The notes under the pieces were generated by a model. It made no database searches, was not told the origin of the DNA, and saw nothing but the letters and a program-made list of their open reading frames with translations. A program made the position numbers and the translations under genes. 44,330 nucleotides of DNA from a virus, in IMG/VR virus record IMGVR_UViG_3300018083_000015, positions 1 to 44,330 of that record; one strand, given 5' to 3'. Shown piece by piece: positions 1,373-44,330 of this stretch. Positions within the stretch are counted from its first letter, which is position 1; each line of letters opens with the position of its first letter.

Positions 1373-2939
1373 TAGCCATTTGCGCCATTAAGTAAGCTAA
1401 TAATTCGGGAGTAAGCATGTCTTGACTAGACTTATCAGTAGTAGAAACTTCTTCAGGAACAGCATTCCATCCTGTAGATAAAGGCATAAAGAAATCTCTC
1501 AAATCATTCAATTGAGCTAATTGATCTCTATATTTAATAAAGGGCCCATAACCAGGGGCACCATGTCCACCAACACCACTTAATAAACGAGGGGCTGGTC
1601 CTAAATCTGTAATCTGCTTTTCGATATCAGCTAATGCTTGAACAGGATTTGATCCAGCTGCATTATATACAGAAATAGCTGCTGCCTTCATAGCAGGATT
1701 TGTAATTCCTTCAATTGCTTGTGGAACTAATGGATTCTTCTGAGCCGTAGTAGTTGATGCAGATTGAGTAGGCTGATTCATATACTTAGTAAAATCAGGT
1801 ATCTTAGCCGCAGTAGCTGACTTTGTAGCAGCATCCGCAGCAAGTTTAGTTATTAAATCTTGACTATCTTTCTCCATGCCATACTTACTACCCAAGAAAC
1901 TAAGTAAAGCTGAATCTCCCTCAGAGAGTCCACCCTCTCTACCGACAAATTGCTTAGGAGTTAACAAACCTTCTCTAGCTTGGAATCCAAGATTATTTCC
2001 CGACAGGGCAGCCATTTCTCCCATTTTACTCATGAATGAAGTATCTGTAGCTTGATTAGCTCCACTCATTTGAGATAGATACTCAGCATCGGATTTAGCT
2101 TGTTGCCCTTGATTACTAGCTGCATAGTTGATACCAATGTTTCCGCCACTGGTTTGGAGTTCATTAGCTAAAGCAGCATTAGTTGTATCACGGACTTGAT
2201 TGCCTTGTGCATAGTTATTAACTACATCACCAATAGCACCCTGAAATTGTTGCTGTGCTTCTGAACCGGCTTGACTTAAACGATCTCCTAATTGATTCAA
2301 ATAAGACTGAGAATACGGTGAAATCCAATGCTCAGGAATATCAGGAGTTCCTGCTAATGCACGAATCTGCGCTTCAATATCAGCTAATGGATTGGAAGCA
2401 TTAAGATTAGGGTCTAATTGTAATGAAGTCTTACCAGGACTACCGAATCCAGGCTTAGCAGCATTAGCATCTACTTTAGCTCTAGCAGCCTCTAGATTCA
2501 TAATAGTCTGATTAGGAGTACCAATCTGTCCTGTAGGTCTTTTAGCCTGTGGGGTAAGATTCATATTAGGAATAGCATTGCTAACACTCATGCGAGCATT
2601 TCTATTTGCAATGATTTGGGCAATACCAGAATCATGCAATTGCTCTGGATAAGCATTAGGTTGTGCATTCCAAGGAGAAGCATTACCAGGATCTAATTTA
2701 GGGTGTGTCATTCTAGCCGCAGGAGAAGTAACTCTAGGGGCGGGAGAAAGATTCTGAGTAATAGAACTAATTGGGGCAGGAGAGGGTTGAGAATCCTGGG
2801 CAGCAGCACCTTGAATAAGTAAATTCTTAGTGTTCTGCGGACTCATCATCATTTTGTAAAAAGATGAATTACCATACAGCTGTTCAAGATATCTTTGAAG
2901 TTCAGCCTGAGAAGCAGATCTAGCATCAGTTGGCATCAT
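1365..2939 (-). CDS. Ala/Gln/Asn-rich virion-associated protein
   Basis: A 524-residue protein with low-complexity composition rich in Ala, Gln, Asn, Ser and Pro. The first ~180 residues contain many Pro and Asn. The middle (about 190-330) contains Gln-rich helical sequence. It starts with ATG-ATG after an AGGA element. The gene sits between a 111-residue small gene and the giant virion gene, overlapping the latter's start by 8 bases. Composition and position resemble internal virion proteins of podoviruses, which enter the cell with the DNA. No catalytic motif is visible, so the role is inferred from context only. Confidence 0.7.
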   Translation of the reverse strand: MMPTDARSASQAELQRYLEQLYGNSSFYKMMMSPQNTKNLLIQGAAAQDSQPSPAPISSITQNLSPAPRVTSPAARMTHPKLDPGNASPWNAQPNAYPEQLHDSGIAQIIANRNARMSVSNAIPNMNLTPQAKRPTGQIGTPNQTIMNLEAARAKVDANAAKPGFGSPGKTSLQLDPNLNASNPLADIEAQIRALAGTPDIPEHWISPYSQSYLNQLGDRLSQAGSEAQQQFQGAIGDVVNNYAQGNQVRDTTNAALANELQTSGGNIGINYAASNQGQQAKSDAEYLSQMSGANQATDTSFMSKMGEMAALSGNNLGFQAREGLLTPKQFVGREGGLSEGDSALLSFLGSKYGMEKDSQDLITKLAADAATKSATAAKIPDFTKYMNQPTQSASTTTAQKNPLVPQAIEGITNPAMKAAAISVYNAAGSNPVQALADIEKQITDLGPAPRLLSGVGGHGAPGYGPFIKYRDQLAQLNDLRDFFMPLSTGWNAVPEEVSTTDKSSQDMLTPELLAYLMAQMANG

Positions 2940-2944
2940 AGTTC

Positions 2945-3455: not shown

Positions 3456-5578
3456 GATAATGCCTTTAACTGTACGTTGAATTGCCCGGAGTTATCAAAA
3501 TAAGCGGAATCACCCATGCGCATCCTAATAACTCTACCACCAGCATTAAATTGGAATCTATATGTAAATTGAGATACACTATAAGGACCACCATCAGGTT
3601 CTATATGTACCCAACCAGCACCATCACCAAGATCCCATTGAATTCCACCACCGTGACCAGGAGTTAAACTTCCACCTACAGTATCGGCATCTGTCCAAGC
3701 ACCAGTATAGTAATAACAAACTCCATCAACTCTAGCTTCTACTAAATTGTAGGTGTTAACAGATTGAACACCACCATCAGCAGTAGCAGGAACAGTAATG
3801 AATTCAGTAGCTGCAATCCAGCCTTCTGTAATTCCAGCGCTTCTATAGTTAGCTCTTTGAGTAGGAGTTAATGCGCCAAGATGAACTAACGTCATAGCAT
3901 AATACCCATCAACTTCTGATGGAGTATTACCATTACCACCAACCATAATCATACCAGGACCATTATTTCCCCTAGCAGCATTATTGGTGTTTACTAGATC
4001 ACTACCAGTAACTTGAATTCCATCATGATAAATTATGGGTGTAGAGTCTCCAGGAGGAAAGTAGGATTCTATGATAGTCCAAGCATTGTATGAAGTATTA
4101 GCTTGCTGTTGAGCCGCTTTGGCAACAAAATCTCCAGCGGCACGGTTTGCAGCAGCTAAAATAGGGCCATTATATAAGTTCATTTCCATGTCTACTGTAG
4201 TAGTAATACCCCTAGTTTTTTCTACCATTGTGCCTAAACTAGCCATGGGTCTTACTACTTGAACGAAAGTAAAACCACTAGAATAACCATTTGGAAAGGT
4301 ATCACCACTAATAGCGAAGTTGTTGATACTAGCGTTTCCAAATCTAGGATATAGGAAATTATCAGGGCCAGCGATTAATGTAGCAGAAGTGATAGGACTA
4401 GGGCCATTAATACCCATTGAAATATCTATACTACCAGTACTATTAACCACGGCATCAGCTATATCTATAGAAGTAAACCTATACAAAAGACTCGGATTGG
4501 CTGCTAATAAAGCATTGTATAAAAGACCTGTTGTAGCCAATTTAGCCCCTACAGGACCAATTGTAACTACGTTGCTATTTCCTGCCATAGCAACAAATCC
4601 AAAACCTTTTTGCATGGCAATATCAATAGGACCATTCCAAACTCCACCTGGAAAGTCCGAAGCTGTCATTGTTTGTTTAAGAACAGGAGCAGCTTTATTA
4701 GTTACATCTATAATGCAGAGTTTACTAGAGGAACTAGCACAGCAAAAAAGTAAATTTCCATACAGAGCCATTCTACCAAACCCTGTAAATGAAGCTAAAC
4801 CTATTTGCCCATTATATACTGGATTATCTGGATCAGATACATTGAAAATAACCATTCCATTATCAATAAGATAATAGAACCAACCACCTCTAAAAAGCAT
4901 TCCTTTAACTGTGCCAGATATTCCTGTATCTGAATTAGGAGGAACGCTAGGATTAGAAATATTATATGTATTTATAATACCGGAACTAATCCCTTTACCA
5001 GGATAATCCATAGAACAGTAAGCAAAATTACCGTCGGGTGAAACAGCGACGCACCAATATCCTTGATTGCCTACATTAGAATTATTAACTGCTGCTAATG
5101 CAGCTTTATTTAATCGAACAATTCCACCAACACCGAATTCAGAAGTAACGGCATAGATATAACTGCCAGCACCATCAATATCCCATACACGTCTTAATCC
5201 AGTAGTAGCGGATACACTATGAGGGGATATATTTCCTGCTGCATCAATATTAAATTTTCTAATATAATCAGCATTTTGAACAGCTACATAAGCATGAGTA
5301 TCGTCCATAAAGAAACCTTGTGGACGAGGGCCAACAGTAGATTCAGCATCTATTAGTTTAAGATGCCACGGATCTTTAGCATCCAGAGAAGTAAACATAT
5401 TACTTCCCCAAGCTACTAAGAATAGTACATCATCTTTATTTTGAATACGAGAGGGACTACCTGTAAATGTATTATTGGAAAAGTGAGCCTTATACTCATA
5501 AAGCTGACTTGAATCTACTGTGTCTGGATGAGCGTGCATTCCTAAACCCTGGAATGTATCACTAGGAACCATGCTCAT
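3452..5578 (-). CDS. Putative receptor-binding tail protein: beta-propeller plus lectin-like domain
   Basis: A 708-residue protein with three apparent regions. Residues ~30-350 carry repeats of the LVIVD/propeller kind (VDVSDPxxP-like units such as IFNVSDPDNPVYNGQ and IIDVTNKAAPVL). Residues ~360-590 look like a LamG/concanavalin-type jelly roll (GGNGNTPSEVDGYYAMTLVH). The C-terminal ~110 residues are a separate beta-rich module. Propeller plus lectin fold suits glycan binding at the host surface. The start ATG overlaps the previous stop by 4 bases. Adjacent genes are fibre-like, so this is probably the distal adhesin. The function is inferred from composition and position. Confidence 0.65.
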   Translation of the reverse strand: MSMVPSDTFQGLGMHAHPDTVDSSQLYEYKAHFSNNTFTGSPSRIQNKDDVLFLVAWGSNMFTSLDAKDPWHLKLIDAESTVGPRPQGFFMDDTHAYVAVQNADYIRKFNIDAAGNISPHSVSATTGLRRVWDIDGAGSYIYAVTSEFGVGGIVRLNKAALAAVNNSNVGNQGYWCVAVSPDGNFAYCSMDYPGKGISSGIINTYNISNPSVPPNSDTGISGTVKGMLFRGGWFYYLIDNGMVIFNVSDPDNPVYNGQIGLASFTGFGRMALYGNLLFCCASSSSKLCIIDVTNKAAPVLKQTMTASDFPGGVWNGPIDIAMQKGFGFVAMAGNSNVVTIGPVGAKLATTGLLYNALLAANPSLLYRFTSIDIADAVVNSTGSIDISMGINGPSPITSATLIAGPDNFLYPRFGNASINNFAISGDTFPNGYSSGFTFVQVVRPMASLGTMVEKTRGITTTVDMEMNLYNGPILAAANRAAGDFVAKAAQQQANTSYNAWTIIESYFPPGDSTPIIYHDGIQVTGSDLVNTNNAARGNNGPGMIMVGGNGNTPSEVDGYYAMTLVHLGALTPTQRANYRSAGITEGWIAATEFITVPATADGGVQSVNTYNLVEARVDGVCYYYTGAWTDADTVGGSLTPGHGGGIQWDLGDGAGWVHIEPDGGPYSVSQFTYRFQFNAGGRVIRMRMGDSAYFDNSGQFNVQLKALS

Positions 5579-6375: not shown

Positions 6376-6377
6376 AG

Positions 6378-8006
6378 TCAACTATCAGTTCTAGGAGTTT
6401 TCCTGTGGGTATGGAGAACTAACGCACTTCCAAGAATACTGTACTCATCAATAGCTGAACTAAGTGTAGTAGCAAGATTAAACTGTAGGTGCCTAAAGAA
6501 CTCAGGTCCTTTAATTTTAATCAAACCCTCTTTAGCAGAGATCACATCATAAGTACTAATATTATCTACTTGGCGTGCAACTTCTTGCTCAGTATCCCAC
6601 TGATAATCAATATCAATATCGTCACCAGGATTACCGGAGGCTGAAAAGTTAATGTATCCGTACTTTCCTCTTTTTTCATCAAGCATCTGCCCCCGAATTA
6701 TCTTAGAAGTATAAGTAGATTTTACTGGAGATACTTCTTCACTAGCCGCTAATTTAGTTAACTTGTCCTGATACCCGTCATAAATAAAAAGCTGTGTAGT
6801 AAGATTGTTGAAGATAGGGTTAGTAGAATTACCATGAGCTATAACTATATAGTTATTAGGAGCCCATTTAACATGTGTTTCTAAATTAGAGAATCCAGCA
6901 AGAAGATCGCCAGGCTGAGTAGTGGTACCAAAAGTAATTTCCGTCCAAGCAATGAAATCCAATCTAGTATAGAACATACGAGCTTCTGAGGTAATATGAT
7001 TAGCCCCAGAAACTAAAAGCTTCGTTCTACATATAATTATACCCTCAGCAAATGGAACCATTTTCCACATGAAGTATACATTGGGTAATTGCTCTTGAAA
7101 GATATCCTGAATCTTATCAGAGATATCTTTAACTTCATCTTGATTAGTCACCCATACTCCACGACTATCAATGAAATAAATAAGACCTTTATCTTCAATA
7201 GCGCAGTTAGCATGATTAACTTTAACTGAAGCATCCATTGAACGAACAACCCAATTCTCAGGACTACCAAGAATTGAAATGTTATAGAGACCTGAACCTG
7301 TAAATACAAATAACTTAGTACCTACAGGAATTACTTTTTGGATCTTACCTAATCCCGCATTAGCTCCAATTACAATAAACTGACCGTTCATATCCCAAGA
7401 TTCAGGATAAGCGCCAGGAGCATTAGGTGGGAGAGTGTAGTAAATCTTAGTATCGTCCCAACTCCAAAGACGATCCTTAAAGACGAATAACCCGCCTCGA
7501 CAATTGTAAGTATTAGGTACTGCTACTTTGGTTACTGTACCTAAGGCCCAGTTCCAGTTGGATAAAATTTCTACACCACCACTATCTAAGCAGTAGAATT
7601 TATCTAAGTATAAACAAGCACCAGCAAAATTAGAGATATTAGCAAACGAAGCTAACCCTGGATTACTGTCAGATGAAGCTGGATTATCTCTATCAAATTG
7701 GCGCAAAGCCCATGTAGTAGAGAAATTAGAGGGATTGCAAGCAGTCCACATAGCCACGGGAATGGATGCATCAGAAGAATTAGGTAATTGAGTATACCTA
7801 TTGTTCAATCCAATATCTGGATAAGATCCCCTAGTATCAACAGAATTAGGTGGTTGAAAACCTTTTCTCGTTATAAGACGATCTTTATTAGCAACGAAGT
7901 TTTTAACAGACGTGCAAAAACCATCAACTATATTAGCTGGATGATTGTAGGAATCAATACCTAACCCTACAGGGATTGGAAGAGTTTCTTCACTATAGAC
8001 TGTCAT
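6378..8006 (-). CDS. Propeller-type podoviral tail protein (nozzle/DNA stabilisation-like)
   Basis: A 542-residue beta-rich protein. The N-terminus (IPVGLGIDSYNHPANIVDG, then ITRKGFQPPN) matches the style of P22 gp10-like or nozzle proteins that plug the portal channel in short-tailed phages: an early RxGF element, then alternating beta strands with WDD, YFIDSRGVW and FIYDG blades. It follows directly on the head-tail adaptor gene with a 4-base ATGA overlap, as in other podoviruses. It probably forms the tail tube end. The assignment rests on order and fold style, not on a catalytic motif. Confidence 0.6.
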   Translation of the reverse strand: MTVYSEETLPIPVGLGIDSYNHPANIVDGFCTSVKNFVANKDRLITRKGFQPPNSVDTRGSYPDIGLNNRYTQLPNSSDASIPVAMWTACNPSNFSTTWALRQFDRDNPASSDSNPGLASFANISNFAGACLYLDKFYCLDSGGVEILSNWNWALGTVTKVAVPNTYNCRGGLFVFKDRLWSWDDTKIYYTLPPNAPGAYPESWDMNGQFIVIGANAGLGKIQKVIPVGTKLFVFTGSGLYNISILGSPENWVVRSMDASVKVNHANCAIEDKGLIYFIDSRGVWVTNQDEVKDISDKIQDIFQEQLPNVYFMWKMVPFAEGIIICRTKLLVSGANHITSEARMFYTRLDFIAWTEITFGTTTQPGDLLAGFSNLETHVKWAPNNYIVIAHGNSTNPIFNNLTTQLFIYDGYQDKLTKLAASEEVSPVKSTYTSKIIRGQMLDEKRGKYGYINFSASGNPGDDIDIDYQWDTEQEVARQVDNISTYDVISAKEGLIKIKGPEFFRHLQFNLATTLSSAIDEYSILGSALVLHTHRKTPRTDS

Positions 8007-8644
8007 AGAAGATCAAATCCATATTCTTGATCCATCGGATCAGGTTGAACAGTCCTGTAGGTATCATCTCTGCTGAGACTTTCGAATTTACGCTTAGAAA
8101 GATTCTTCATGAATCGAGTCATAATTACTTCAGCGGCTCGATAATTCTCATTGCGCTCATGCGCTTTTGCTAAACACCACTCTGCAAGATCGCCATGAAG
8201 ATAGAACGGAATTCCAATTGCATCACCAGTAGCTGTAACTGCAACAGGAGCAGGTACATAGAAGATAGTAATCTTTGTAGTATCTGTAGTAGGTGGGTTA
8301 GGATATAGAAAGATTCTACTTCCCTCAGTATAATAACCTACTGGAACTCCACCTTGAGGAGCATAACCTAAGCGATCTAATGATTCTGGTTCTAACAGTA
8401 AGAGAGAGGTTGTATCATAATATACTCTCTTAAGAAGAATCATGTCAGCAATACCAACGCCTGCATTATTGTTAAATGCAGAAGCCTGCATGGAATTTTC
8501 CATCTTAGATATGCACTGTGTCTCTCGGACAATTTCTAGCATACCCTCATTAATCCAGTCCATGATATGAGTGTCATAAATCATGACTTGATTACTGTCG
8601 CCGAAGCCGTTTTGTACTCTAGTAATTACCTCTGAGACGAGCAT
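8003..8644 (-). CDS. Head-tail adaptor-like protein
   Basis: A 213-residue protein beginning MLVSEVITRVQNGFGDS and continuing with DWINEGMLEIVRETQCI. This N-terminal helix pair (V-x-R-V-Q...F-x-D...I-xx-WINEGxLEIxR) is typical of phage adaptor proteins that dock below the portal. A middle beta region contains YFYVPAPVAV-like strands, and the C-terminal helix carries the basic MTRFMKNLSKRKFE. It ends overlapping the tail propeller gene by 4 bases. The expected role is bridging portal and tail. Function from family pattern, moderately sure. Confidence 0.6.
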   Translation of the reverse strand: MLVSEVITRVQNGFGDSNQVMIYDTHIMDWINEGMLEIVRETQCISKMENSMQASAFNNNAGVGIADMILLKRVYYDTTSLLLLEPESLDRLGYAPQGGVPVGYYTEGSRIFLYPNPPTTDTTKITIFYVPAPVAVTATGDAIGIPFYLHGDLAEWCLAKAHERNENYRAAEVIMTRFMKNLSKRKFESLSRDDTYRTVQPDPMDQEYGFDLL

Positions 8645-9655: not shown

Positions 9656-10929
9656 GCGACTTTCTTCTCCAATTCTTCGATACGACTATTTAATGCTTGC
9701 ACAGCCCCTGCAAGCTGTGTAGTTAAATTACTATACCCAATACCATTAACTTTACCAGGCTCAAATGCCTCGGGACCGTCTCTTGATACAGAATATGGTG
9801 TTACTTCGTCCATTTCTTCTGCAATAAATCCTTCACCATATTCATCGTTCTCTATCCACTTAAATTTAACTGGACGCCAACGCAATACTTGATTAAGACA
9901 ATCTTGAATTGAAAGTTCTTCTATATCTTTCTTAATATTTCTTGATGAAAGATAACTATAAACCTTTCCTGAATCAATATAAACATGCCCAGCAGAACCA
10001 AGGAAGAAGTTGTGATTAGAACCAATTGTACGTAACCATATAGAACTATAACCACGAAGTTCGGGACCATTATTGGCTTCACCAGAACCTGTAGGTGTAG
10101 CTGCATTATATTGAAGAGAATGATTACCATCTCCAGGGATAAGTTGAATAGATTGTCCTTGAGTCATTTGAAGTACAGAAGTGCATTTTAAAGTACCCAC
10201 TTGAATAGTATAGGGAGCATAGAAAACTCCATCAGTACCCCAAGTGAACAAAGTTAAATAATCACTAGTGCGTCGCATAGTGATTTGATCATTCATATCC
10301 CAGAAAGCGCCACTACCATTATAGGCAGTAGATATACGGAAACTACCTGAACCTAGACGTAAATCTCCTGCCAAGAAGGTAACAACACCATCTGCTTTAA
10401 AAGGAGAAGGTGTCCACAAAGTAGTTCCATCGTGATTTAAAAACCATGCACTTCCAGCAGCATTTAAAACATTTAATCTAGAAGCAGTAATTGTAAATGG
10501 AATAGCACCAGTTTGAAATGCCCACTCAGTAGTTAATGTTATCTGAGGACCGGAACCAAACTTAAGAGTTTTAGCTATTGTAGCAGTTAGAGTGTCCGCA
10601 GAAAGTGTTAAAGCAGAACCACCAGCCCATAAAAAGAAATCTTTTGTGCCATTAGCGTTAAGATCTTGTCCAACTTGCCAATCCCCAAATTTAATTGCAG
10701 CACGTTCTGATGTAGCGTGGGTCGTCGGAGGAATTGTAATTGCAGCGGGTGTAATACTTGACTCTAAAGTACCTACAGTAATAGCTTTAGGTAATGTAGT
10801 ACCCCATACAGCATCAAAATCAGTAGCTGAATTCTTTATCAGTAAATCTCCAGCTACACCACCAGCGGGACCAAATCCTGACCCTAATGTTTGCCAAGCT
10901 CCTGCAACTCTTGCTTTTAAGACTGTCAT
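9652..10929 (-). CDS. Tail fibre with C-terminal S74 self-cleaving chaperone domain
   Basis: A 425-residue fibre. The N-terminal half is beta-rich repetitive shaft sequence (for example GSGPQITLTTEWAFQTGAIP). The last ~100 residues match the peptidase S74/intramolecular chaperone: SSRNIKKDIEELSIQDCLNQ, then RPVKFKW, GEGFIAEEMDEV and a terminal coiled coil (LNSRIEELEKK). In this family a Ser-Lys dyad, here the Ser before NIKK and a Lys of KKDI, cleaves the chaperone after trimer folding. It is tightly coupled to both neighbouring genes. Confident domain call. Host-binding role inferred. Confidence 0.8.
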   Translation of the reverse strand: MTVLKARVAGAWQTLGSGFGPAGGVAGDLLIKNSATDFDAVWGTTLPKAITVGTLESSITPAAITIPPTTHATSERAAIKFGDWQVGQDLNANGTKDFFLWAGGSALTLSADTLTATIAKTLKFGSGPQITLTTEWAFQTGAIPFTITASRLNVLNAAGSAWFLNHDGTTLWTPSPFKADGVVTFLAGDLRLGSGSFRISTAYNGSGAFWDMNDQITMRRTSDYLTLFTWGTDGVFYAPYTIQVGTLKCTSVLQMTQGQSIQLIPGDGNHSLQYNAATPTGSGEANNGPELRGYSSIWLRTIGSNHNFFLGSAGHVYIDSGKVYSYLSSRNIKKDIEELSIQDCLNQVLRWRPVKFKWIENDEYGEGFIAEEMDEVTPYSVSRDGPEAFEPGKVNGIGYSNLTTQLAGAVQALNSRIEELEKKVA

Positions 10930-11588
10930 TATTGACTCGCAATCGCTAGTCCAAGATCATTTATCCACACACCGCCACCTTGATCGTTCCACATATTTCC
11001 CCCGCCACTACCAGTGTTAGCTTTAATAGCAAAAGTATAAGATGCTGTTGCATTAGGTACTAATATTTTATGTATATAACAACTATTATAATTAGTTGGA
11101 GCATACACATAATCATCAACTAAAGGCATTCCACCTGCTGGTGAAGGGGCACAAGAAAAATAAAGATTATTAGCTGAAGTTATTGCTCTACAGGATATAA
11201 TTAATTCATACATCCTACCCACAGTTAAAGTTACAACTAATGTAGCAAATGTAGTAGGAGTTGCAGTTAAAGCTAATCCTGCATAAGTTCCTTGTTTCCA
11301 GGCAACTAATCCTCTAGGCGCTTCATTAGCTACTTCTGCAACAGCTGATTGAACATTAGTTGCAGCAATTGTACCTGTAGGTGAAAACGAAATAGCAGAA
11401 GCTAATGGAGCGGCAGGTGGATTAGTTACTGTGTCAATCCATAACTCTGCTTGTGGATTAGTAGTGATAGGATCAGCAGCAGCTACTATTACTTCATTCT
11501 GTAAATCTACATATTGTTTAGTAGCTGCTTCTAAAGCAAGAGTAGGATCAGCAGGAAGTTGAAAAGGTACGAGAAGTTTTCTGCTCAT
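10929..11588 (-). CDS. Tail fibre/baseplate-type protein sharing modules with neighbours
   Basis: A 219-residue protein starting MSRKLLVPFQLPADPTLALE followed by AATKQYVD, nearly the same N-terminal module as the next gene (11590-12741). A central FSPTGTIAATNVQSAV resembles units in the 12741-13739 product. The C-terminal ~120 residues form a beta-sandwich-like domain. The shared modules indicate shuffling of fibre segments. TAATG-type junction with the S74 fibre gene. Likely a trimeric surface fibre. Confidence 0.6.
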   Translation of the reverse strand: MSRKLLVPFQLPADPTLALEAATKQYVDLQNEVIVAAADPITTNPQAELWIDTVTNPPAAPLASAISFSPTGTIAATNVQSAVAEVANEAPRGLVAWKQGTYAGLALTATPTTFATLVVTLTVGRMYELIISCRAITSANNLYFSCAPSPAGGMPLVDDYVYAPTNYNSCYIHKILVPNATASYTFAIKANTGSGGGNMWNDQGGGVWINDLGLAIASQ

Positions 11589-23614: not shown

Positions 23615-23643
23615 ACTATCCTACAGGAAAGGTGGTGGTAAGA

Positions 23644-31756: not shown

Positions 31757-32088
31757 AGGACGAATTAGTAATTGATTGGCGATCTACTGGACGCAGGAAA
31801 GCAAGACGTTCTTTGTTTAATGCACGAGTAGATTTCTGCTGTGTTGAGTGCGGTAAAACAACACGTGAACCACCCAAAGATGCGCCAGTCTTTTTCGATG
31901 AGATTTGGCCTTACGAGCGTCGCGTTTTATCTGGACAAGCATTGCAAGCAGATCATGAATCAAAAGACTTGCATAATAACAACGTAGAAGATCTGAATTG
32001 GCGTTGTGCATCATGTCATAAGAAACGAGATATGCAAACAGAAAAGGGAGAAAGCACCATTGTAAATGATATTGCAGATTACCTGTAG
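31753..32088 (+). CDS. HNH endonuclease
   Basis: A 111-residue protein with zinc Cys pairs CVEC and CASC flanking the beta-beta-alpha metal finger: LQADHESKDLHNNNVEDLNW (the ADH supplies the catalytic His, N follows). A basic N-terminus (RRKARRSLFNAR) can contact DNA. A free-standing HNH in a phage operon may be a homing nuclease or recombination/packaging enzyme. Its stop TAG is formed inside a CCTGTAGG octamer. Confidence 0.8.
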   Translation: MKDELVIDWRSTGRRKARRSLFNARVDFCCVECGKTTREPPKDAPVFFDEIWPYERRVLSGQALQADHESKDLHNNNVEDLNWRCASCHKKRDMQTEKGESTIVNDIADYL

Positions 32089-32089
32089 G

Positions 32090-34185: not shown

Positions 34186-34430
34186 TGCCATTCCACACAA
34201 CCATAAGAAACGAATCAACGATAACAGAAAAAGCAACTCTTACTATTGATGATGATTGGTCTGCTTCACTGTATGGGGATAAAAATTTCCCTGATGATCC
34301 TAAGTGTAGTTGGTTGATCGAATCGTTAGATGAGAGATTTGAACTTGTCCTGTATGTTAAGGATAAGAATGCATTGCAAGTGTTAATTGACCAATTTCTA
34401 AGAGACCTACAGGAGCTTTACATCGAGTAA
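34185..34430 (+). CDS. Small unknown protein
   Basis: An 81-residue protein. N-terminal beta strands (TTIRNESTITEKATLTIDDD) lead into a helix (ALQVLIDQFLRDLQELYIE). TAATG-coupled to the TM peptide. The DLQE codons lie in a CCTACAGG octamer. No family recognised. Confidence 0.65.
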   Translation: MPFHTTIRNESTITEKATLTIDDDWSASLYGDKNFPDDPKCSWLIESLDERFELVLYVKDKNALQVLIDQFLRDLQELYIE

Positions 34431-34442: not shown

Positions 34443-34595
34443 ATGTATACCGTGAAAGAGTTTATCAGATTTTTGAAGTTCTATCAGACGCAAGGGCTTT
34501 CCATTGATGAAATGGTAAAGCTACTGGAGTACTACGGTGACGACGAGCTTAGAGCCTTTATATTTAATCAGCCCGAGTCAGTTTCGAGTTCATAA
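34443..34595 (+). CDS. 50-residue helical protein overlapping the nuclease gene
   Basis: ATG 34443 is preceded by GGAG and the frame ends TAA at 34593. The product (MYTVKEFIRFLKFYQTQGLS, IDEMVKLLEYYGDDELR) is two amphipathic helices. Its last 59 bases overlap the start of the nuclease gene in another frame, and its own sequence supplies that gene's GGAG site. Probably genuine, function unknown. Confidence 0.55.
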   Translation: MYTVKEFIRFLKFYQTQGLSIDEMVKLLEYYGDDELRAFIFNQPESVSSS

Positions 34596-35511
34596 GGATT
34601 GTCCCCAACTTCATAAGTACATCTATGAAAATGGGTTACGTCCGAAGCAACGAGAAAAGAAGTTCGAGGTTGGATCTTATTGGCATGAGTTAGCGCATTT
34701 CTATTACCAGCTCATTAAAGCTGGATACAAAATTGGTGACCCATTAACTTTTAGTGCGATGGACACCAAGATGCGAAATGACCTAGCTGAAGTCAAGGAC
34801 GACTATTTAGGAGTGCTTTGCCAAGTCCACGTTATGTTCCGTCGCTATCTGGAACGTAGGACCCAAGAAATTGACACAGGTATAGATATTGTTGAAGTCG
34901 AAAGAGAGATCAACTTTCCCATTAGTGATTCCGCTGGAATTCATGGTATTGTAGACCTTATCTATAGACGCCGGGGCAAACTAATCATCAGAGACCACAA
35001 GACTGGTGAGAATCAGTCTGCTCACTCTAATGAATCCTTAGAAATGGACGATCAGTTACTAACGTATGCCTGTATCATATATAAGCAATACGGAGAAGTT
35101 CCAGACATTGAAATTAGCTGGATCAACTCAAAGACTGATTACAAGAATGGGGCTACAAACGACCAACTCTTTAGGACTTACTACAAGGTAATGACTAAAG
35201 AATACTTAGAAGCCTTCTGGACCTACACGGAACAGTACGTGTATCATATGCAGACTGTTCCTGCTATCAGACACATCAATGGATACAAGTGTAAGTCCTG
35301 TAAGTTCAAAGATCCTTGTATGTTTGAGCTTCGTGGTTTTGATATTCGGAACATGATCCAATCGAATTACGTTCACGTTCCGAGGAATCATGACTACAGA
35401 AAATTCACAGAGATTGCCCGAAAGAACCCCGTTAGAAACAATGTTGATAAGCCGAGTAAAGATTTACCCAGCGGACGGGTCACCATTGATTTCTTTGCTA
35501 GTAAGACATGA
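34537..35511 (+). CDS. Cas4/RecB-like PD-(D/E)XK nuclease with iron-sulfur Cys set
   Basis: A 324-residue protein starting GTG 34537. Core motifs: HELAHFYYQ helix, GIHGIVDLIYRR (motif with Asp), IIRDHKTGE (DxK), and MDDQLLTYA (QxxxY-like). A single Cys in the N-terminal HKDCPQLHKY and three near residue 253 (CKSCKFKDPC) reproduce the four-Cys [4Fe-4S] arrangement of Cas4, AddB and Dna2 nucleases. It probably trims DNA ends for recombination. Its neighbours are a Sak4-like ATPase and a putative ssDNA-binding protein. Confidence 0.85.
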   Translation: MTTSLEPLYLISPSQFRVHKDCPQLHKYIYENGLRPKQREKKFEVGSYWHELAHFYYQLIKAGYKIGDPLTFSAMDTKMRNDLAEVKDDYLGVLCQVHVMFRRYLERRTQEIDTGIDIVEVEREINFPISDSAGIHGIVDLIYRRRGKLIIRDHKTGENQSAHSNESLEMDDQLLTYACIIYKQYGEVPDIEISWINSKTDYKNGATNDQLFRTYYKVMTKEYLEAFWTYTEQYVYHMQTVPAIRHINGYKCKSCKFKDPCMFELRGFDIRNMIQSNYVHVPRNHDYRKFTEIARKNPVRNNVDKPSKDLPSGRVTIDFFASKT

Positions 35512-35617
35512 TGCTAGTAAAGGGTTCTATAGGGTAGTTGAGAAAATTGTCAATGGAGTGAAGATTATTGAACATGAGGTAAACATCAGCTATGTCTTTG
35601 AAAGCAATGACACTTGA
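35390..35617 (+). CDS. Small beta-rich protein overlapping the nuclease gene end
   Basis: A 75-residue protein from ATG 35390, with GAGG five bases upstream. Its first 122 bases overlap the nuclease gene in another frame, and its 3' end overlaps the next gene start by 26. The C-terminal half (KGFYRVVEKIVNGVKIIEHE, VNISYVFE) reads as genuine beta strands beyond the overlap. The real start may be further in, for instance 35441. Function unknown. Confidence 0.5.
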   Translation: MTTENSQRLPERTPLETMLISRVKIYPADGSPLISLLVRHDASKGFYRVVEKIVNGVKIIEHEVNISYVFESNDT

Positions 35618-36299
35618 TGAAGTGTCAGTCTACTTAAAGCTATTGATCTATGGACCACAGGGAATAGGCAAAACGTTTTGGACAGCGGAGAATTGTCCCA
35701 AGCCTGCTGTATGGATGGACTTTGAAAGATCCTCAGATACGATTCTTTCCAATCGAGATAGATTCAAAACTGAGGACTTCAAAATCATTCAGGTAACTCC
35801 CGATAAAGACCCAAAGGAGGTAGAAGATTTCTGTAAGAACATTCATAAGACTGAGTTCAAGACAATCATCTTTGATACTATGACTACCAGTCAAGTGTTT
35901 CAGCTAGACCACTGGATGAATAACGGTAGTAAGAACAAAGGTCATAGTCCAACTCAACCGGATTACAGAGAGTCCACAACTGTATTCCAACGAATGTTCC
36001 TCAGATTGCAACATGCACCAATCAATGTTGTGTTGATCGCTCATGAACGTGAAATGTGGATTGGTGAGGGACCATCTAGAAGAATTTCTAGTGTAATTCC
36101 CTCAGTTACTCCCGCACTTCATGATGCTGTTACTCAGTTAGTTTCCGGTGTTTTCCGACTGAGTAAGAAGAATGGCAAGTACCAAATGCTTACGGAAACA
36201 AAGGGTTTGTATATTGCCAAGAATCGGTATGGAATTGCCGATGTAGAAGTAATAGATCCAACTTGGAATACATTCTTGAAAGGAATGACAAATGCTTGA
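35592..36299 (+). CDS. Sak4-like RecA-fold ATPase (ssDNA annealing/recombination)
   Basis: A 235-residue protein. Walker A GPQGIGKT lies at residues 21-28, Walker B at about 90-96 (TIIFDTM), with VVLIAHEREM later, typical of the phage AAA_24/Sak4 group. These small RecA-core proteins promote strand annealing and usually pair with an SSB-like partner, here the next gene (8-base overlap). GAGGT lies 11 bases before ATG. Strong family resemblance, biochemical role inferred. Confidence 0.8.
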   Translation: MSLKAMTLDEVSVYLKLLIYGPQGIGKTFWTAENCPKPAVWMDFERSSDTILSNRDRFKTEDFKIIQVTPDKDPKEVEDFCKNIHKTEFKTIIFDTMTTSQVFQLDHWMNNGSKNKGHSPTQPDYRESTTVFQRMFLRLQHAPINVVLIAHEREMWIGEGPSRRISSVIPSVTPALHDAVTQLVSGVFRLSKKNGKYQMLTETKGLYIAKNRYGIADVEVIDPTWNTFLKGMTNA

Positions 36300-36735
36300 C
36301 CTTGATCTTGGTGGTGTAGCTTCCGCTGGGAAACCACTACCAGAAGGTGATTACGAATTCCTGATTACTGATGCAACTGTTCAACTGTCGAAAGAAAAGA
36401 CGTCACACAACCTTAAGCTTCGGCTTGAAGTTTCCAGCGACGATGAAGCTGGCCGTCCTCATTCGGAGAACTTGAACATTCAAAAGAGCACTCGTCCTTT
36501 TGTTAAGGCATTTGTGACAGCTCTTTGGGGCGTTGAAGATGATGAGGTCGATAACATCTCTTTCGACTTTGATGAAGATTCAGATACTGTCGATGCTTTC
36601 AATAGTGGAGCAGCGATTACCCTACAGGGTATTAACGGTCAGCCAGTTATCAATCAGACAATTGGCGGCACAATCAAGCACGTGACTACTGATGGAAGGA
36701 CTTACGGAAACGTAATCGCCTGGTATCACGTCTAA
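36292..36735 (+). CDS. Putative ssDNA-binding protein (Sak4 partner)
   Basis: A 147-residue beta-rich protein. EGDYEFLITDATVQLSKEKT and NLKLRLEVSS, then VDAFNSGAAITLQGINGQP, resemble the DUF669/OB-type phage proteins found directly behind Sak4 genes. Acidic stretch FDFDEDSDTVD. The overlap with the ATPase gene and a strong terminator after its stop mark the end of this unit. Function by association. Confidence 0.65.
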   Translation: MLDLDLGGVASAGKPLPEGDYEFLITDATVQLSKEKTSHNLKLRLEVSSDDEAGRPHSENLNIQKSTRPFVKAFVTALWGVEDDEVDNISFDFDEDSDTVDAFNSGAAITLQGINGQPVINQTIGGTIKHVTTDGRTYGNVIAWYHV

Positions 36736-36740: not shown

Positions 36741-36790
36741 GAGAGGGAGTACCTGTGCCAAAAGCAATCTCAGGTACTCCCTCTCTTTTT
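36741..36790 (+). terminator. Strong intrinsic terminator
   Basis: GAGAGGGAGTACCTG (36741-36755) pairs perfectly over 15 bp with 36771-36785, followed by TTTTT (36786-36790). The loop is 15 bases. It separates the recombination genes from the primase-helicase and polymerase genes, which begin 11 bases later and so must rely on readthrough or an unseen start. Confidence 0.92.
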
Positions 36791-36800
36791 GGAATGGGCT

Positions 36801-38453
36801 ATGGATGATCTATCAAGATTCCTAGAGTTTTTATATTCGGAATCTGAGGGATATGTATACGTAGCAACGAAAGATACTTTAGCCACTAATCAAGAATGGA
36901 GACAGGAATTCTTTCTGTGGCCAGAAGCAAAAGACGATATCTACAATTACATAACCCATCAGCAGGAAGAAAGGGACGTATATGTAGCACCGGCCTTATT
37001 CAAAGGCAAGAACTCTCTAAAAAAGTCCGTACAGGGTACAAACGTTTTATGGGTAGAGTTTGATGGACAGCAGCAAATCGACTTCCAAGATTTACCGCAT
37101 CCTGATTGCATTGTTCAAACAAGCGTAGATACCCATCTACATTGTTACTGGAAGATCGACTACCTCGATAATACAGATACGATTGATCAAATCAACCGTA
37201 GACTTACACATTATCTAGAGGCAGATGCTTCTGGTTTTGATGCAAACCAAGTTCTTCGACCACCCCTGAGTAAGAACTGGAAACATCAAGGACTACCAGT
37301 AACTCTGAAACACCTTATATCTGATGGTGTTCACCATGAGTTCTCTTCTTTTGAAGCGGCACCTGAACCGACTGTACAAGTCATTCGTTTAAATCAGGAG
37401 ATGCTTCTCCCTGTAGGTGAATTGCTTAAGACTTTACCTCTGCATGCCCAATTAAAAAAGCGGATAATGTCAGAGGTAGTAGTTCATCCTCATAGAAGTT
37501 CTTTCTTGATGAAAGTAGCTCATGAGTTGGCAGAAGAAGGTTGTAATCATATTCAGATAGTTAGTCTGTTAGATTACATAGATGATAGAATTAAGAAGTT
37601 TGAGGGAAGGAGAGACAAATTAACACGTCTAAGCGAGTTAGCCTCAGTCGCTTTATTACACGTTTCCGTCGAAGAGGGACTCCAGTTATATTCTCCAATG
37701 GACATTTTGAACCACAAGGAGAGCCTGGAGTGGATAATTCCAAACTGGTTACACAAATCTGGGTTTGTAATCTTAACAGGACCGCCCAGCGTTGGCAAAA
37801 CGACCCTTGCTTTACAGCTTATGAAACATCTTGCAAATGCGGAGACTTTTATCTCAAGGGAAGTTCTGACGGAAAGCAAGGTTCTATTTCTATCGTTAGA
37901 AATGAGTCAGTTCGAATTAAAGTACTTCCTTACGAACATGAACAAGGAGTTCCAGAACGATCCGAAATGGGAGCAGAACGTTAGGATACTTGATGAGGAT
38001 AGACCGCTTCTTGATTATGAGACTATCATTTCAGAGTATTGTCCTGATGTTGTCTTTATTGATTCTCTTACTGAATTGGCAACCGAGGAACTTAAAGAAA
38101 CAGAAGCCAGAGCAATAACTCGATGGATCAGGAGATTGAGAAAGAGGTACAAATGCGCTTTTGTCGTTATCCACCACAATCGCAAGGAATCCGGTCTAAA
38201 GTTCAAAGAGACCAAGTTAACTGGAGTTTACGGTTCGTTCATATTTGGCAAAGATGCCGAGACTGTTCTCAACCTAGATAGGGATGAGAACGGGGATATT
38301 GCTTTATATAGCCTCAAGATGAGATTCGACAGAAAGGTGATGATTGATCTTACTCAGAACGAAAATCTGATCTTTAGCTTAAAGGAGGTGGATGGTGATA
38401 ATACACAACCAGGAACAATTGGCTCAGGCTCTATCCGTCTTAATCTCGACTGA
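36801..38453 (+). CDS. Primase-helicase (RepB-type primase plus RecA-like helicase)
   Basis: About 550 residues from ATG 36801. The N-terminal ~240 residues resemble DNA-primase/RepB domains (VLWVEFDGQQQIDFQDLP, then CIVQTSVDTHLHCYWKIDYL). The C-terminal half is a RepA/AAA_25 RecA-like domain: GPPSVGKTTLALQLM (Walker A near residue 330), VVFIDSLTELAT (Walker B) and FVVIHHNRK. It likely primes and unwinds DNA at the fork. Start context is weak. The 3' end overlaps the polymerase gene by 62 bases. Confidence 0.8.
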   Translation: MDDLSRFLEFLYSESEGYVYVATKDTLATNQEWRQEFFLWPEAKDDIYNYITHQQEERDVYVAPALFKGKNSLKKSVQGTNVLWVEFDGQQQIDFQDLPHPDCIVQTSVDTHLHCYWKIDYLDNTDTIDQINRRLTHYLEADASGFDANQVLRPPLSKNWKHQGLPVTLKHLISDGVHHEFSSFEAAPEPTVQVIRLNQEMLLPVGELLKTLPLHAQLKKRIMSEVVVHPHRSSFLMKVAHELAEEGCNHIQIVSLLDYIDDRIKKFEGRRDKLTRLSELASVALLHVSVEEGLQLYSPMDILNHKESLEWIIPNWLHKSGFVILTGPPSVGKTTLALQLMKHLANAETFISREVLTESKVLFLSLEMSQFELKYFLTNMNKEFQNDPKWEQNVRILDEDRPLLDYETIISEYCPDVVFIDSLTELATEELKETEARAITRWIRRLRKRYKCAFVVIHHNRKESGLKFKETKLTGVYGSFIFGKDAETVLNLDRDENGDIALYSLKMRFDRKVMIDLTQNENLIFSLKEVDGDNTQPGTIGSGSIRLNLD

Positions 38454-40056
38454 TAGTCCCATTTCAATTGATACAGAAACCAACATGACCGAATCTTATG
38501 CAGAGCGGTTCTGTCTTGGAGTATCAATTGCTCAGGAAGATAATTATTGGTACATTCCTGTAGGTCATAGAAATACGATCTTAGGGCCACAAGAAAACAT
38601 TGATTTCCTACCACCTGAGTTCTTTGAGAAACTTAAGCATCATACAATAATCATGCATAATGCCAAGTTCGATCTAGAGGTATTGTACAGATTGGGTTTC
38701 ACTGATAGGTTTGAAACTATCTTTGACACCATGTTGATGCATCATTACATAGATGAGAACTCAGAGTTTAAACAACACGACTTAGAATATCTATCCAAGA
38801 AGTACTGTAGTGTTCCTAAGAATGCAGCCCTACAGAAAGCATTAAAAATAGATTGGGACAATTCCCTTATTCATCCAATGGCTAAGTATGCTCAGGAAGA
38901 TGCTATAGCTACACTTCAACTCTATTCTGTGTTGGATCAATGGTTTGAACCCTACAGGGATGCTTGGTTTGATTACGATAAAGAGTTCATGTATCTCCTA
39001 ATGAAAATGGAGATGAAAGGAATCCGCCTTGATAAATCAGAGTGTGCGAAGAACGAGAAACTCTGCCGAGCAAGAATGGCCGAAATCAAAAAAGAAGTCG
39101 GTTGGGACATTGGTTCGACAAACCTTCTCATTGAAAAACTATTCAGAGAGTCTCCAAAAGGGTTTGGACTCCGTCCCTTATCACATACTCCTGGCGGAAA
39201 ACCACAGATCAATACAGATTTCCTTGAAAAAACTAATCATCCTATCTGCGGACTTATACTCGAATACCGACGATGCCAAAAGATGGCATCTTCTTATTTC
39301 GAGAATTACCTTACCCTTGTCGGGCAGGGTGATAGACTCTATCCGAGCTTTAAACAATTTGGAACAGTTACAGGCAGACTATCATGTGAGAATCCGAATC
39401 TCCAACAAGTTCCTAGAGATAGTGACGTCAAGAAAATGTTCCTACCCGATGAGGGATTGCAGTTGTGGGAGATTGATTTCCGAAACCTTGAAATGAGAAT
39501 GGCAGCTGTCTATTCTAATTGTCATCCACTGTTAGAAGTGTTTGAGAATGAGGGTGATGTTCACCAAACAGTCGCAGATAGATTAGGCATTAGTAGACAG
39601 GTGTCAAAAATTGTCAACTTCTTACTCATATATGGTGGTGGAGCAGAAGCTCTGTCTTTTCAGGCTAAGATCCCGATTAGCAAAGCCAAAGGAATTTACT
39701 CAGATTACAGAAAACAGTATCCTGAGCTATTTCATCATATGGACAAGTGTACGGCGATTGCTGAAAGCAAAGGGGAGATACGGTTATTTAGTGGTAGACG
39801 ACGGCATTTTAAGTATCAATCGGAATGCCGAAAGGCTTTCAACAGCGTTATCCAGGGCGGGGCTTTCGAGCTTGTCAAGCGTGGAATGCTTCATCTTGAA
39901 AAAGCCGGCGTTGATATGCGAAACCAGGTCCACGATTCTGTCTGGATTAATGCTCATAATGAAGGAGAAGTACAAGAGGCGGCCCACATTATGTCTGATT
40001 GGACAAAAGAAGCTTTCGGTTTACATTTCTCGGTAGATATTAAAAGGCTCAGGTGA
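38392..40056 (+). CDS. polA: Family A DNA polymerase with 3'-5' exonuclease
   Basis: A 554-residue protein with a perfect AAAGGAGGTG site. Exonuclease motifs: DTE (Asp27, Glu29), NAKFD (about 90) and YAQEDA (about 166). Polymerase motifs: A, DFRNLEMR (Asp362, Glu367); B, RQVSKIVNFLLIYG (Lys406, Phe410, Tyr414); C, HDS (514-516). The usual Glu of motif C (HDE) is replaced by Ser. It lacks a 5'-3' exonuclease domain. It should be the replicative polymerase. Compact length fits phage versions. Confidence 0.93.
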   Translation: MVIIHNQEQLAQALSVLISTDSPISIDTETNMTESYAERFCLGVSIAQEDNYWYIPVGHRNTILGPQENIDFLPPEFFEKLKHHTIIMHNAKFDLEVLYRLGFTDRFETIFDTMLMHHYIDENSEFKQHDLEYLSKKYCSVPKNAALQKALKIDWDNSLIHPMAKYAQEDAIATLQLYSVLDQWFEPYRDAWFDYDKEFMYLLMKMEMKGIRLDKSECAKNEKLCRARMAEIKKEVGWDIGSTNLLIEKLFRESPKGFGLRPLSHTPGGKPQINTDFLEKTNHPICGLILEYRRCQKMASSYFENYLTLVGQGDRLYPSFKQFGTVTGRLSCENPNLQQVPRDSDVKKMFLPDEGLQLWEIDFRNLEMRMAAVYSNCHPLLEVFENEGDVHQTVADRLGISRQVSKIVNFLLIYGGGAEALSFQAKIPISKAKGIYSDYRKQYPELFHHMDKCTAIAESKGEIRLFSGRRRHFKYQSECRKAFNSVIQGGAFELVKRGMLHLEKAGVDMRNQVHDSVWINAHNEGEVQEAAHIMSDWTKEAFGLHFSVDIKRLR

Positions 40057-40059
40057 TTT

Positions 40060-40686: not shown

Positions 40687-40867
40687 TAACCTACAGGATG
40701 CCATAGATGATGGTTATCATTATTTCCTTAGATCAATCTATGGGGATTATACAAACTCAATGTGGGCAAAAAAAGAGACAGCCGTGGCTGCTTTAGAAAT
40801 GATTAATCGTTCCTTACTAAGAAACGTTTTAACACCATTGATTATTATTGCAGATAAGGACCTATGA
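40679..40867 (+). CDS. Small unknown protein
   Basis: A 62-residue protein (MYDNLQDAIDDGYHYFLRSI) with a helical N-terminus and a hydrophobic C-terminal stretch (LTPLIIIADKDL) too short to be a sure membrane span. Overlaps the exonuclease gene by 8 bases and the resolvase gene start by 4. Its first codons contain a CCTACAGG octamer. Function unknown. Confidence 0.6.
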   Translation: MYDNLQDAIDDGYHYFLRSIYGDYTNSMWAKKETAVAALEMINRSLLRNVLTPLIIIADKDL

Positions 40868-41509: not shown

Positions 41510-41516
41510 TATCAGT

Positions 41517-41546: not shown

Positions 41547-41553
41547 AGCTGCA

Positions 41554-41688: not shown

Positions 41689-41759
41689 CTCCGAGCCTGG
41701 TAGACGGCGATATAACAGTGTTATTTGGGTGCCCCGCTTTTCTCAAACAGGGAGTTATT

Positions 41760-41933: not shown

Positions 41934-44330
41934 CTAATTGCTTAGCTCTAGCCATAGCTTCATTAGGATCTTGTGTTTCAAACATTACTTCATTATCTTC
42001 TTCACGAATAATCCTAAACGAAGTGCCGCCCTTACGTTGAGAAAGAATTAACTTGTAACCCTTTTGAGTCAATTGCTCATTCACTCCTGTAAGCTTTTCC
42101 TTTATAGCCTTATCAAGAGTATATGCAGCAGCAGTTTGTTCTCCCTCAGTTACCGTATTAACTGGTAATCCAAGACCCATTCTACTACCTACAGTCTTTT
42201 CTAACCAACCATGCTTATGTCCAGGACCAAAGCCAGGAAGTTTGTCTAATGCTCCAGTATCTTCAAGAGGCTTAACAAAAGGTAGCATAGAGTCACTAAA
42301 ATAACCACCAGAAGAATCAATAGGCTGATCGTTAAAATAACTAGTTCCCCCAGCAAGCTCAAAAGGCGCCTTAACATATGGGTTCACCTGTGAGACTAGG
42401 TTCTGGAAGAAGCTTTTTGGAGAAGAGAAGTTAGTGAGTCTATTCAATACATCTGTAGGTAAGAACTGCGCTCCAAGAATATTCGGCTGTCCTGTACTGC
42501 CACCGGGCATATCAGCATAGCCAATATCTTGTTGATACTGTGGAGTTAGCATATCATTGTATGATCCATCGTCATGATTATCTAAGAGAAAACGCTGCGT
42601 CTTAGAGAACTGACTCGGATGGAGGAACATTGATTCTGCAAGAGTTGGCATCGCTTTACGAGTATAAGTATAGAATGGGAAGATACGACGAAAGACCTTT
42701 TGTTCTACAGGAGTCAAAGCCGTGTAGTCGAATAGGTACTTATTAACTCTATATGTAGCAGCATCAATTGCTTTACGCTCTGCTCTTGCAGCGTTGCTTG
42801 TTTCTTTAACAGCCTTAGGCAATTCTTCCCTGAATGCCTTTAAGAAGTGATTGAATCGGAACAAGTCCTCTCTTTTTTCAGAACCCTTACGAGCTAACTG
42901 TAATGGAGCACCTGGACTTAGTGTAGCTGACTTATCGGCTCCTAACAATTCCGCTGGTTGATAACCACCCGACGAAGCATTGTCCTTGAACATCTTCTTG
43001 AGTTCTTCAAAGGTGTACTTCTTACCCGCAATATCTAGCGTGTAGTTAGGGTCCAGCTTAGACTTACGAGCGAAATCAGTTAAGAACGCAACGTCCTTTC
43101 CTCTTACTCCATCCAGGTAAGACATGAACATATCGCCAATAGCATTACGAATATGGAAGCCGGTCCACGGAATCGTAGCACTAGTCTTGAAGATTCTAGT
43201 CCACTTATCAATTAAGCGAACGAATCCCTGTAGGTGCGTTGTTTCGTTTCCACTGATGATCTTCTTGAAGTTATCAAACACATCATTAATGTGATTAGGA
43301 AGATACCAGTCATGGCCCTTGCCCATTGCATCTAATTCTTTGGCAATATCAGTAGGCATTAAATCTTTGTACTGCTTAGTGAGCTTCATTCTCCTAATCA
43401 AATCAGGGGATAGATGCTGACCCATAACACCGTAGTTGTGAATCAAATCACGATTGAACCAAGCCTTAGTAAGCTTCTTGTTGGAATTCATCTTTCTATA
43501 GAGCAAAGCTCGGAAAGCATCTTCTTCTGGCTTGAACTTAAGCGCCTTTGCAGCAGCAGTATGATCCGCAGGTAACAATCCAGTTTTCTTAATATAAGAC
43601 TGAATATTATCTGTCTTGTACTTCTGAATTTTATTGCGAATATCAGAGCCACGATAGAAGTTATATACATAGTTGTCAGGACGAGCATCTGTAGCTTTCC
43701 TGGCACCCATATCTACTTCTTCTTGGAACATCTCCTTGTACTTAGTCTTAATGAAATTAGCCAAGAAATCCATACGAGGATTAAGAGGCTTACCAGAAGT
43801 AATAGCCTCTTGTAATTGCTTACGTTCGTCCTTAGTTACCTTGTATGTCTTGACGAAATCTACGATCTCTTTATGGAAATCCATGTAGCGTCGCATACCA
43901 AGAGAACGAACCTGCTGAGCAATTTGTGGAGTTCTACCGATTAATTGATCAGCATATTTGACGTCCTTAAGGAAGTCCAAAGGAGGCTTATGTCCTGCAT
44001 AAGCTGCACCTAACTTCTTAAGTCCATATGCCTTACTACCAATACGGAAACCAGGAGAGTTATAAGCAGCCCCTTCTAACTTACTATATAGATTGTCTTG
44101 GAAGTCCTTAACAACATTCTCCATTAAGCTATTGACGTGCTTAATAGATCCATCTACCTGATCGAATAGATTGTGTGTAGGAGCGTTCTTCACGAAGTCA
44201 TCAAAGGCATCAGTGATATCTACATACCCTCTGCCTGAGTGTGCAGCTTTAGTCTTTGTAAGCAAGTCATCAAAGAACTCACTCATGAAAGGCTGCTTAC
44301 GAAGTTGAGCAATCTCTGCCTTAGTATACA
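41926..44330 (-). CDS. Giant virion protein, C-terminal part (continuation of the gene starting at 1372)
   Basis: This is the 3' portion of the ~1217-residue gene that begins at 1372 and crosses the circular junction. The C-terminal ~790 residues are helical and charged. They contain a stretch reading NKYLFDYTALTPVEQKVF followed by RRIFPFYTYTRKAMP, a segment type I associate with very large phage virion or polyvalent proteins. No protease, lysozyme or transglycosylase active site could be picked out. The stop at 41926 overlaps the end of the convergent small gene ending at 41933 by 8 bases. Probable role: internal core or ejection protein, or large minor head protein. Moderate confidence in structural nature, low confidence in exact function. 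Confidence 0.75.
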   Translation of the reverse strand, partial: YTKAEIAQLRKQPFMSEFFDDLLTKTKAAHSGRGYVDITDAFDDFVKNAPTHNLFDQVDGSIKHVNSLMENVVKDFQDNLYSKLEGAAYNSPGFRIGSKAYGLKKLGAAYAGHKPPLDFLKDVKYADQLIGRTPQIAQQVRSLGMRRYMDFHKEIVDFVKTYKVTKDERKQLQEAITSGKPLNPRMDFLANFIKTKYKEMFQEEVDMGARKATDARPDNYVYNFYRGSDIRNKIQKYKTDNIQSYIKKTGLLPADHTAAAKALKFKPEEDAFRALLYRKMNSNKKLTKAWFNRDLIHNYGVMGQHLSPDLIRRMKLTKQYKDLMPTDIAKELDAMGKGHDWYLPNHINDVFDNFKKIISGNETTHLQGFVRLIDKWTRIFKTSATIPWTGFHIRNAIGDMFMSYLDGVRGKDVAFLTDFARKSKLDPNYTLDIAGKKYTFEELKKMFKDNASSGGYQPAELLGADKSATLSPGAPLQLARKGSEKREDLFRFNHFLKAFREELPKAVKETSNAARAERKAIDAATYRVNKYLFDYTALTPVEQKVFRRIFPFYTYTRKAMPTLAESMFLHPSQFSKTQRFLLDNHDDGSYNDMLTPQYQQDIGYADMPGGSTGQPNILGAQFLPTDVLNRLTNFSSPKSFFQNLVSQVNPYVKAPFELAGGTSYFNDQPIDSSGGYFSDSMLPFVKPLEDTGALDKLPGFGPGHKHGWLEKTVGSRMGLGLPVNTVTEGEQTAAAYTLDKAIKEKLTGVNEQLTQKGYKLILSQRKGGTSFRIIREEDNEVMFETQDPNEAMARAKQLAS
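44208..44330. repeat. Terminal direct repeat, copy 2 (circular closure)
   Basis: This is the second copy of the 123-base sequence found at positions 1-123. Joining the two copies restores one uninterrupted minus-strand gene running from 1372 through the window edge to 41926, which supports true circular continuity. Confidence 0.9.

Follow-up and report, generated by a model that had tools for sequence, protein, structure and literature searches.

What maintains a single short word at dozens of places on both strands of a phage genome? This question is raised by a viral DNA stretch of 44,330 bases (IMG/VR record IMGVR_UViG_3300018083_000015, hereafter the window), in which the near-palindromic octamer CCTGTAGG recurs from one end to the other. 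A preliminary description, made from the letters alone, had considered an analogue of stoperator arrays, a host-imposed iterated motif, a site for segregation, recombination or packaging, and a methylation target; a primase site was absent from this list. Our analysis indicates that CCTGTAGG, with its core CTGTAG, is probably the site at which an archaeo-eukaryotic primase (AEP) fused to a helicase, encoded by the phage itself, recognises the template and primes.

An octamer enriched at the DNA level

Recounting yielded 29 exact copies, 14 on the plus and 15 on the minus strand, the first starting at 2530 and the last ending at 43234, so that both the number and the balanced orientation described earlier hold for the window. 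Likewise, the earlier estimate of about one copy expected by chance proved sound. Dinucleotide shuffling (100 shuffles) gave 0.84 copies (standard deviation 0.94, maximum 4), and Markov models of second and third order, set beforehand as a check on the octamer, gave 0.87 and 1.5, nowhere near 29. Across the Markov models the expectation thus ranges from 0.9 to 1.5. The enrichment amounts to ~30 times chance, and CCTGTAGG ranks first among the 8-mers of the window for over-representation; its core CTGTAG occurs 65 times versus 23 expected. The word is also sharply delimited. Within the pattern CCTNNAGG the centre is GT in 29 copies and any other centre occurs at most twice, in line with the fixed centre reported before, and none of the single-mismatch neighbours exceeds 6 occurrences. 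The preceding base is never G, the following base is never C, and the spacing is somewhat evener than random (coefficient of variation 0.71, P = 0.04).

The location count agrees with the preliminary description: 26 copies are coding, two (at 23620 and 24655) are intergenic, and the one at 32082 lies across the stop codon of the open reading frame (ORF) 31753-32088. Coding sites fall in either sense and in all frames, being read as PVG/PTG, LQE/LQG/LQD or YR/CR, which bears out the frame readings given there. Synonymous codon shuffling (300 shuffles) left 2.8 ± 1.6 copies in coding sequence (maximum 7) versus the 26 observed. The enrichment acts at the level of DNA and not of protein, as had been proposed.

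Site density is retained while positions turn over

Conservation of the sites in close relatives had been named as a further check. In relatives of 75-81% nucleotide identity (L010-L013, L092, L093 and L096), the octamer survives unaltered at 31 of the 42 window sites that could be aligned, compared with 16-25% for other 8-mers. Two genomes of 69% identity (G019 and G020) agree with the window at only 2 of 10 and at 3 of 9 positions, yet their own totals are 23 and 17 copies. Some of the contigs compared may be near-duplicates. The CCTGTAGG sites are under selection without a fixed place; their density is retained and their positions turn over.

This behaviour bears on the idea that the octamers are stoperator- or operator-like sites of a phage repressor. 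Mycobacteriophage stoperators are likewise dispersed targets of a single DNA-binding protein that the phage encodes, evolving with it, and they too are asymmetric and spread over actinophage genomes, with 26 sites in a described case (PMC9283540). However, genes contain 26 of the 29 window sites, which occur there in both senses and every frame, and the positions are not conserved, turning over at 69% identity. Nor do the candidate regulators track the word: the WhiB protein is present in 19 genomes and the helix-turn-helix protein encoded at 25363-25872 in just 3. We therefore consider a repressor array hardly credible.

A predicted primase fused to a helicase

The proposed reader of the word is the product of the gene at 36789-38453. 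Its residues 1-175 form the catalytic part, residues ~176-300 a helix bundle and residues ~301-554 a helicase. In an AlphaFold model (pLDDT 87), residues 1-300 match RepB' of plasmid RSF1010 (3h20, E 1.4e-11; 3h25, TM-score 0.72, which refers to the RepB' catalytic domain) and S-2L PrimPol (6zp9, TM-score 0.72), and the model displays the AEP catalytic fold. The helix bundle comprises helices 209-297 of the model; 3h20 aligns across both domains in sequence order, the high root mean square deviation stemming from domain orientation. The C-terminal half is modelled with a fold like RepA (1nlf), Twinkle and DnaB. In 26 sequences, D92 within WVEFDG as well as H118 and W121 of H118-x-x-W121 are invariant; judging from their position, we take these acidic and histidine motifs to be AEP motifs I and II. 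The window protein scores below the curated Pfam cut-off for RepB_primase, while its homologues in Muddy, Orla, Agente005, Lebethron, Triscuit and Satis score above it. Thus, judged by its model, the protein is predicted to be an RSF1010 RepB'-like AEP primase fused to a RepA-like helicase. RSF1010 provides the closest solved folds for both halves (3h20/3h25 and 1nlf), but differs in that the halves are fused in the phage protein and that it uses one ssi site per strand as opposed to 14-15 octamers per strand here. A primase scan of bacterial genomes found no relative. In most records of the group G036-G047, the primase and helicase halves match separate reading frames, as two genes, and the word is CTGTCG where full records were counted.

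The word accompanies the primase among phages

The window record looks complete, with a 123-base terminal repeat, and represents a podovirus-like actinophage encoding TerL, portal, major capsid protein (MCP), WhiB, a family A polymerase (PolA), an SNF2 helicase, a PDDEXK nuclease, an AAA_24 ATPase and the primase-helicase. Among its closest named relatives, ctEqG8 contains 28 copies of CCTGTAGG, Arthrobacter phage Jasmine has CTGTGG (101 vs 16 expected), Microbacterium phage Shocker CTGTAAAG (45 vs 0.1 expected) and Cellulosimicrobium phage DS1 CTGTCG (116 vs 28 expected). Environmental relatives show the forms CTGTAGC, CTGTGGC, CTGTAAA and CTGTCGG, with CTGT as the common part, and the podophage words are CTGTAG, CTGTAA, CTGTGG and CTGTCG. 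GTGTGG is among the top words of Muddy, Serbin, Lebethron, PMBT14, Orla, BigChungus, Agente005 and NoShow. The siphophages with GTGTGG possess a homologous primase-helicase without homologous portal or MCP, and infect Mycobacterium, Gordonia, Microbacterium, Serratia and Pseudomonas. Individual pairings of word and phage include CTGTGG with Jasmine, CTGTAAAGG with Shocker, GTGTGG with Muddy and CCTGTAGG with the window.

A word of the form [CG]TGTNN is top or near-top in 46 of 49 phages with an AEP domain and in none of 9 without. When all window ORFs were compared between motif-positive and motif-less genomes, the three primase domains showed the best association: the helix bundle was found in 43/46 vs 0/12 and the AEP domain in 46/46 vs 3/12, PolA being present in 46/46 vs 4/12. 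One apparent exception under the Markov model, G033, yielded CTGTCG/TGTCGG upon codon correction. Homology of the Amigo primase to the family is confined to residues 1-300 (hhalign E 2.5e-19); the helicase combined with it is DUF3987 and the word is GTGTGC. Because Amigo has a word with this other helicase, the helicase half is apparently not what sets it. Jojan60 and Yappy also keep AEP homology next to a DUF3987 helicase, with the word CTGTGC. We wrote down a prediction before fetching eight further AEP phages, and five of these show a [CG]TGTNN word at rank 1 or 2. STP12, intended as a Sak4-positive, primase-negative control, showed GTGTGG; its record ends inside a primase gene, and it was dropped as a negative.

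The same comparison speaks to the host and to virion assembly. Cyanobacterial HIP1 is also a highly iterated octamer in coding DNA, and a host-imposed motif of this kind would share the dispersal in genes, the DNA-level constraint and the balanced orientation. Yet on one host, Arthrobacter ATCC 21022, three outcomes are found, CTGTGG in Jasmine, GTGTGC in Amigo and none in CapnMurica, and GTGTGG is common to phages of five host genera, so the word is not host-linked. A packaging or virion-assembly signal would fit sites spread across the packaged genome, but G008 and G010 have TerL, portal and MCP homologues, no AEP primase and no word, and GTGTGG is present in siphophages whose portal and capsid are unrelated. 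We give either explanation next to no credence. Judging from gene and word content, the word follows the primase and not the host or other modules.

A mark that protects phage DNA, or another target of DNA modification, would suit the strictly fixed, near-palindromic 8-mer. The window contains GAAGAC/GTCTTC once versus ~22 expected, GGATCC and TGATCA are depleted too, and AAAGAC is over-represented. The depletion of GAAGAC, GGATCC and TGATCA looks like restriction-site avoidance and makes restriction pressure plausible. However, none of the scanned window ORFs was recognised as a methyltransferase, over-representation is not required of a modification target, and the relatives' words CTGTGG, CTGTCG and GTGTGG are not palindromic. 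A modification target thus seems very unlikely.

Of the interpretation in the preliminary description, the DNA-level constraint and balanced orientation stand, whereas the stoperator, HIP1-like and packaging roles are not supported. A recombination site is its strongest remaining option, yet it is disfavoured: a Chi-like signal recognised by the Sak4/Cas4/SNF2 set, the usual companion of the primase, appears unlikely, though less so than the other alternatives. This set occurs in most motif-positive phages (Sak4-like 43/46, Cas4-like 41/46, SNF2 41/46), the siphophages are strand-biased, and E. coli Chi and KOPS resemble the octamer as dispersed, mostly genic 8-bp words of conserved density. 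By contrast, the window word is phage-specific and tracks the primase. Sak4-, Cas4- and SNF2-like genes occur together with PolA in G013 and Parvaparticeps, neither of which has a [CG]TGTNN word, and G008 has Sak4- and Cas4-like genes without it. Moreover, Chi is oriented, whereas the podophage word is balanced (14 to 15 in the window); a replication-linked bias was not found, strand bias being confined to the siphophages.

In G013, where PolA, SNF2, PDDEXK and AAA_24 accompany a DnaG/Toprim primase, the top word is instead CTGAAG. There (L248 and L249) it occurs 85 times versus 24 after codon correction and in several frames, possibly as the word of a DnaG-type primase. In CMP1, Satis, Nonagon and G008, unlike in G013, CTGAAG lies mostly in frame, as a codon pair.

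A probable priming site of the phage's own primase

Template motifs are known for several AEPs. The pRN1 primase depends on a template GTG, to which its helix bundle domain binds (PMC8076596); in ssiA of RSF1010, GTG is found where the start is proposed (PMC4434180); and NrS-1 PrimPol uses GTGG/GTGA and TTTGGTTA (PMC8718748). All three are like the window system in primase superfamily, in combining catalytic and helix-bundle domains and in a short word with a GTN core, and for NrS-1 an 8-nucleotide site is known. They differ in that, in these papers, their motifs come from in vitro work or from an origin, while the window word is longer, enriched 20- to 30-fold across the genome and different from phage to phage.

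We thus favour a model in which the helicase half would unwind the phage DNA and the catalytic and helix-bundle half would recognise CTGTAG(G) in the single-stranded template, so that a primer for the phage PolA could be made beside it. Selection for sufficient starts on both strands would then keep many sites anywhere in the genome, so that density would be conserved and positions would drift. A change in primase preference would entail a change of word across the whole genome. Direct contact with the word, priming there and lagging-strand use are inferred. In podophages the word is near balanced between the strands, and both window strands would have to act as template. In siphophages, GTGTGG is 1.2 to 3 times commoner on one strand, in most cases the one carrying the structural genes; this bias is compatible with strand-specific use, although coding constraints may contribute.

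Several points weigh against this explanation. At 7-8 bases the word is longer than most known primase sites, which have 3-5. A single unidirectional fork would predict biased orientation, whereas orientation here is balanced. The three failures of the prediction, CMP1, Satis and Nonagon, have an AEP but no [CG]TGTNN word; their AEPs are the most distant, with a weak or no helix-bundle match. Within the podophage lineage, Mantel r is 0.37-0.57 for all proteins and every tree requires 6-8 label changes, so the proteins evolve together and the primase is not singled out. Furthermore, most motif-positive genomes were gathered via primase homology, and the informative direction is therefore motif given primase; these genomes are also related, and their counts are not independent events. 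Independence of the association rests on the unrelated phage types (podophages, siphophages of the Muddy/Orla/Serbin type, and Amigo/Jojan60/Yappy) and on the swaps.

A broader idea, which we regard as possible but doubtful, is a specificity code: each AEP lineage would impose its own [C/G]TGTNN word, a primase change would rewrite the genome, and replication would be self-selective, with host DNA and rival phages of another word primed poorly. DnaG-type primases may follow suit (CTGAAG in G013). Our searches of open-access literature found no report of genome-wide primase-site enrichment in phages. If the priming-site model is correct, base counts alone could reveal which template an uncultured virus's primase prefers, and the short words dispersed through phage genomes would gain a concrete replication function. 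CTGTAG, CTGTAA, CTGTGG, CTGTCG, GTGTGG, GTGTGC and CTGTGC would form a natural specificity series for mapping how residues read bases, and a seemingly cryptic motif could be tested directly in the cultured phages Jasmine, Shocker and Muddy.

Table 1. Octamer sites and replication genes in the window (sites 1-29 are exact matches to CCTGTAGG)
Feature	Position	Strand	Remarks
Site 1	2530..2537	+	
Site 2	4548..4555	-	
Site 3	7321..7328	-	
Site 4	7966..7973	-	
Site 5	8054..8061	+	
Site 6	10088..10095	+	
Site 7	11374..11381	+	
Site 8	12931..12938	-	lost in relatives L011/L013
Site 9	16443..16450	+	
Site 10	16796..16803	+	
Site 11	17029..17036	-	
Site 12	18253..18260	+	lost in relatives L010-L013
Site 13	18483..18490	-	
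Site 14	19300..19307	+	
Site 15	21174..21181	-	
Site 16	23620..23627	-	intergenic
Site 17	24655..24662	-	intergenic
Site 18	28956..28963	-	
Site 19	30129..30136	+	
Site 20	31354..31361	+	
Site 21	31649..31656	-	
Site 22	32082..32089	+	spans stop of ORF 31753-32088
Site 23	34406..34413	-	
Site 24	36621..36628	-	
Site 25	37410..37417	+	within primase gene
Site 26	38557..38564	+	
Site 27	38951..38958	-	
Site 28	40690..40697	-	
Site 29	43227..43234	+	
AEP primase - RepA-like helicase, 554 aa, proposed motif reader	36789..38453	+	domain matches, predicted folds, best gene-content association
SNF2-type helicase (replication module)	28143..30041	+	PF00176; also in motif-less phages
PDDEXK_1 (Cas4-like) nuclease (replication/recombination module)	34537..35511	+	PF12705; also in motif-less phages
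AAA_24 (Sak4-like) ATPase (replication/recombination module)	35592..36299	+	PF13479; also in motif-less phages
Family A DNA polymerase (replication module)	38392..40056	+	phrog_17 E 9e-114; also in some motif-less phages

Further repeated words

Some genomes hold additional words. G028, G035 and Shocker (L090) have two, CTGTAAAG and a CTGTCG form, the latter with codon-corrected counts of 82/29 in G028 and 100/35 in G035 and present in Shocker as CCCTGTCGGA (10 copies). Shocker also has TACCCTA/TAGGGTA 25 times versus ~1 expected, a second word unlike the primase word. CCGTAACC occurs 21 times versus 0.3 expected in G012 (L045, L246-L247), a phage without a window-type primase. In G018 (L081, L250-L251), a AGAATGAG-type repeat has over 40 copies. 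The annotation of Jojan60 (L257), a Stenotrophomonas phage, includes a WhiB-like regulator, which is otherwise a typical feature of actinophages. In the window itself, the palindrome ATTAGCTAAT is found in four exact copies (12604, 13131, 25740 and 25868) and in 15 with at most one mismatch versus 3.0 expected; TAGCTA is likewise raised in G002 and G029.

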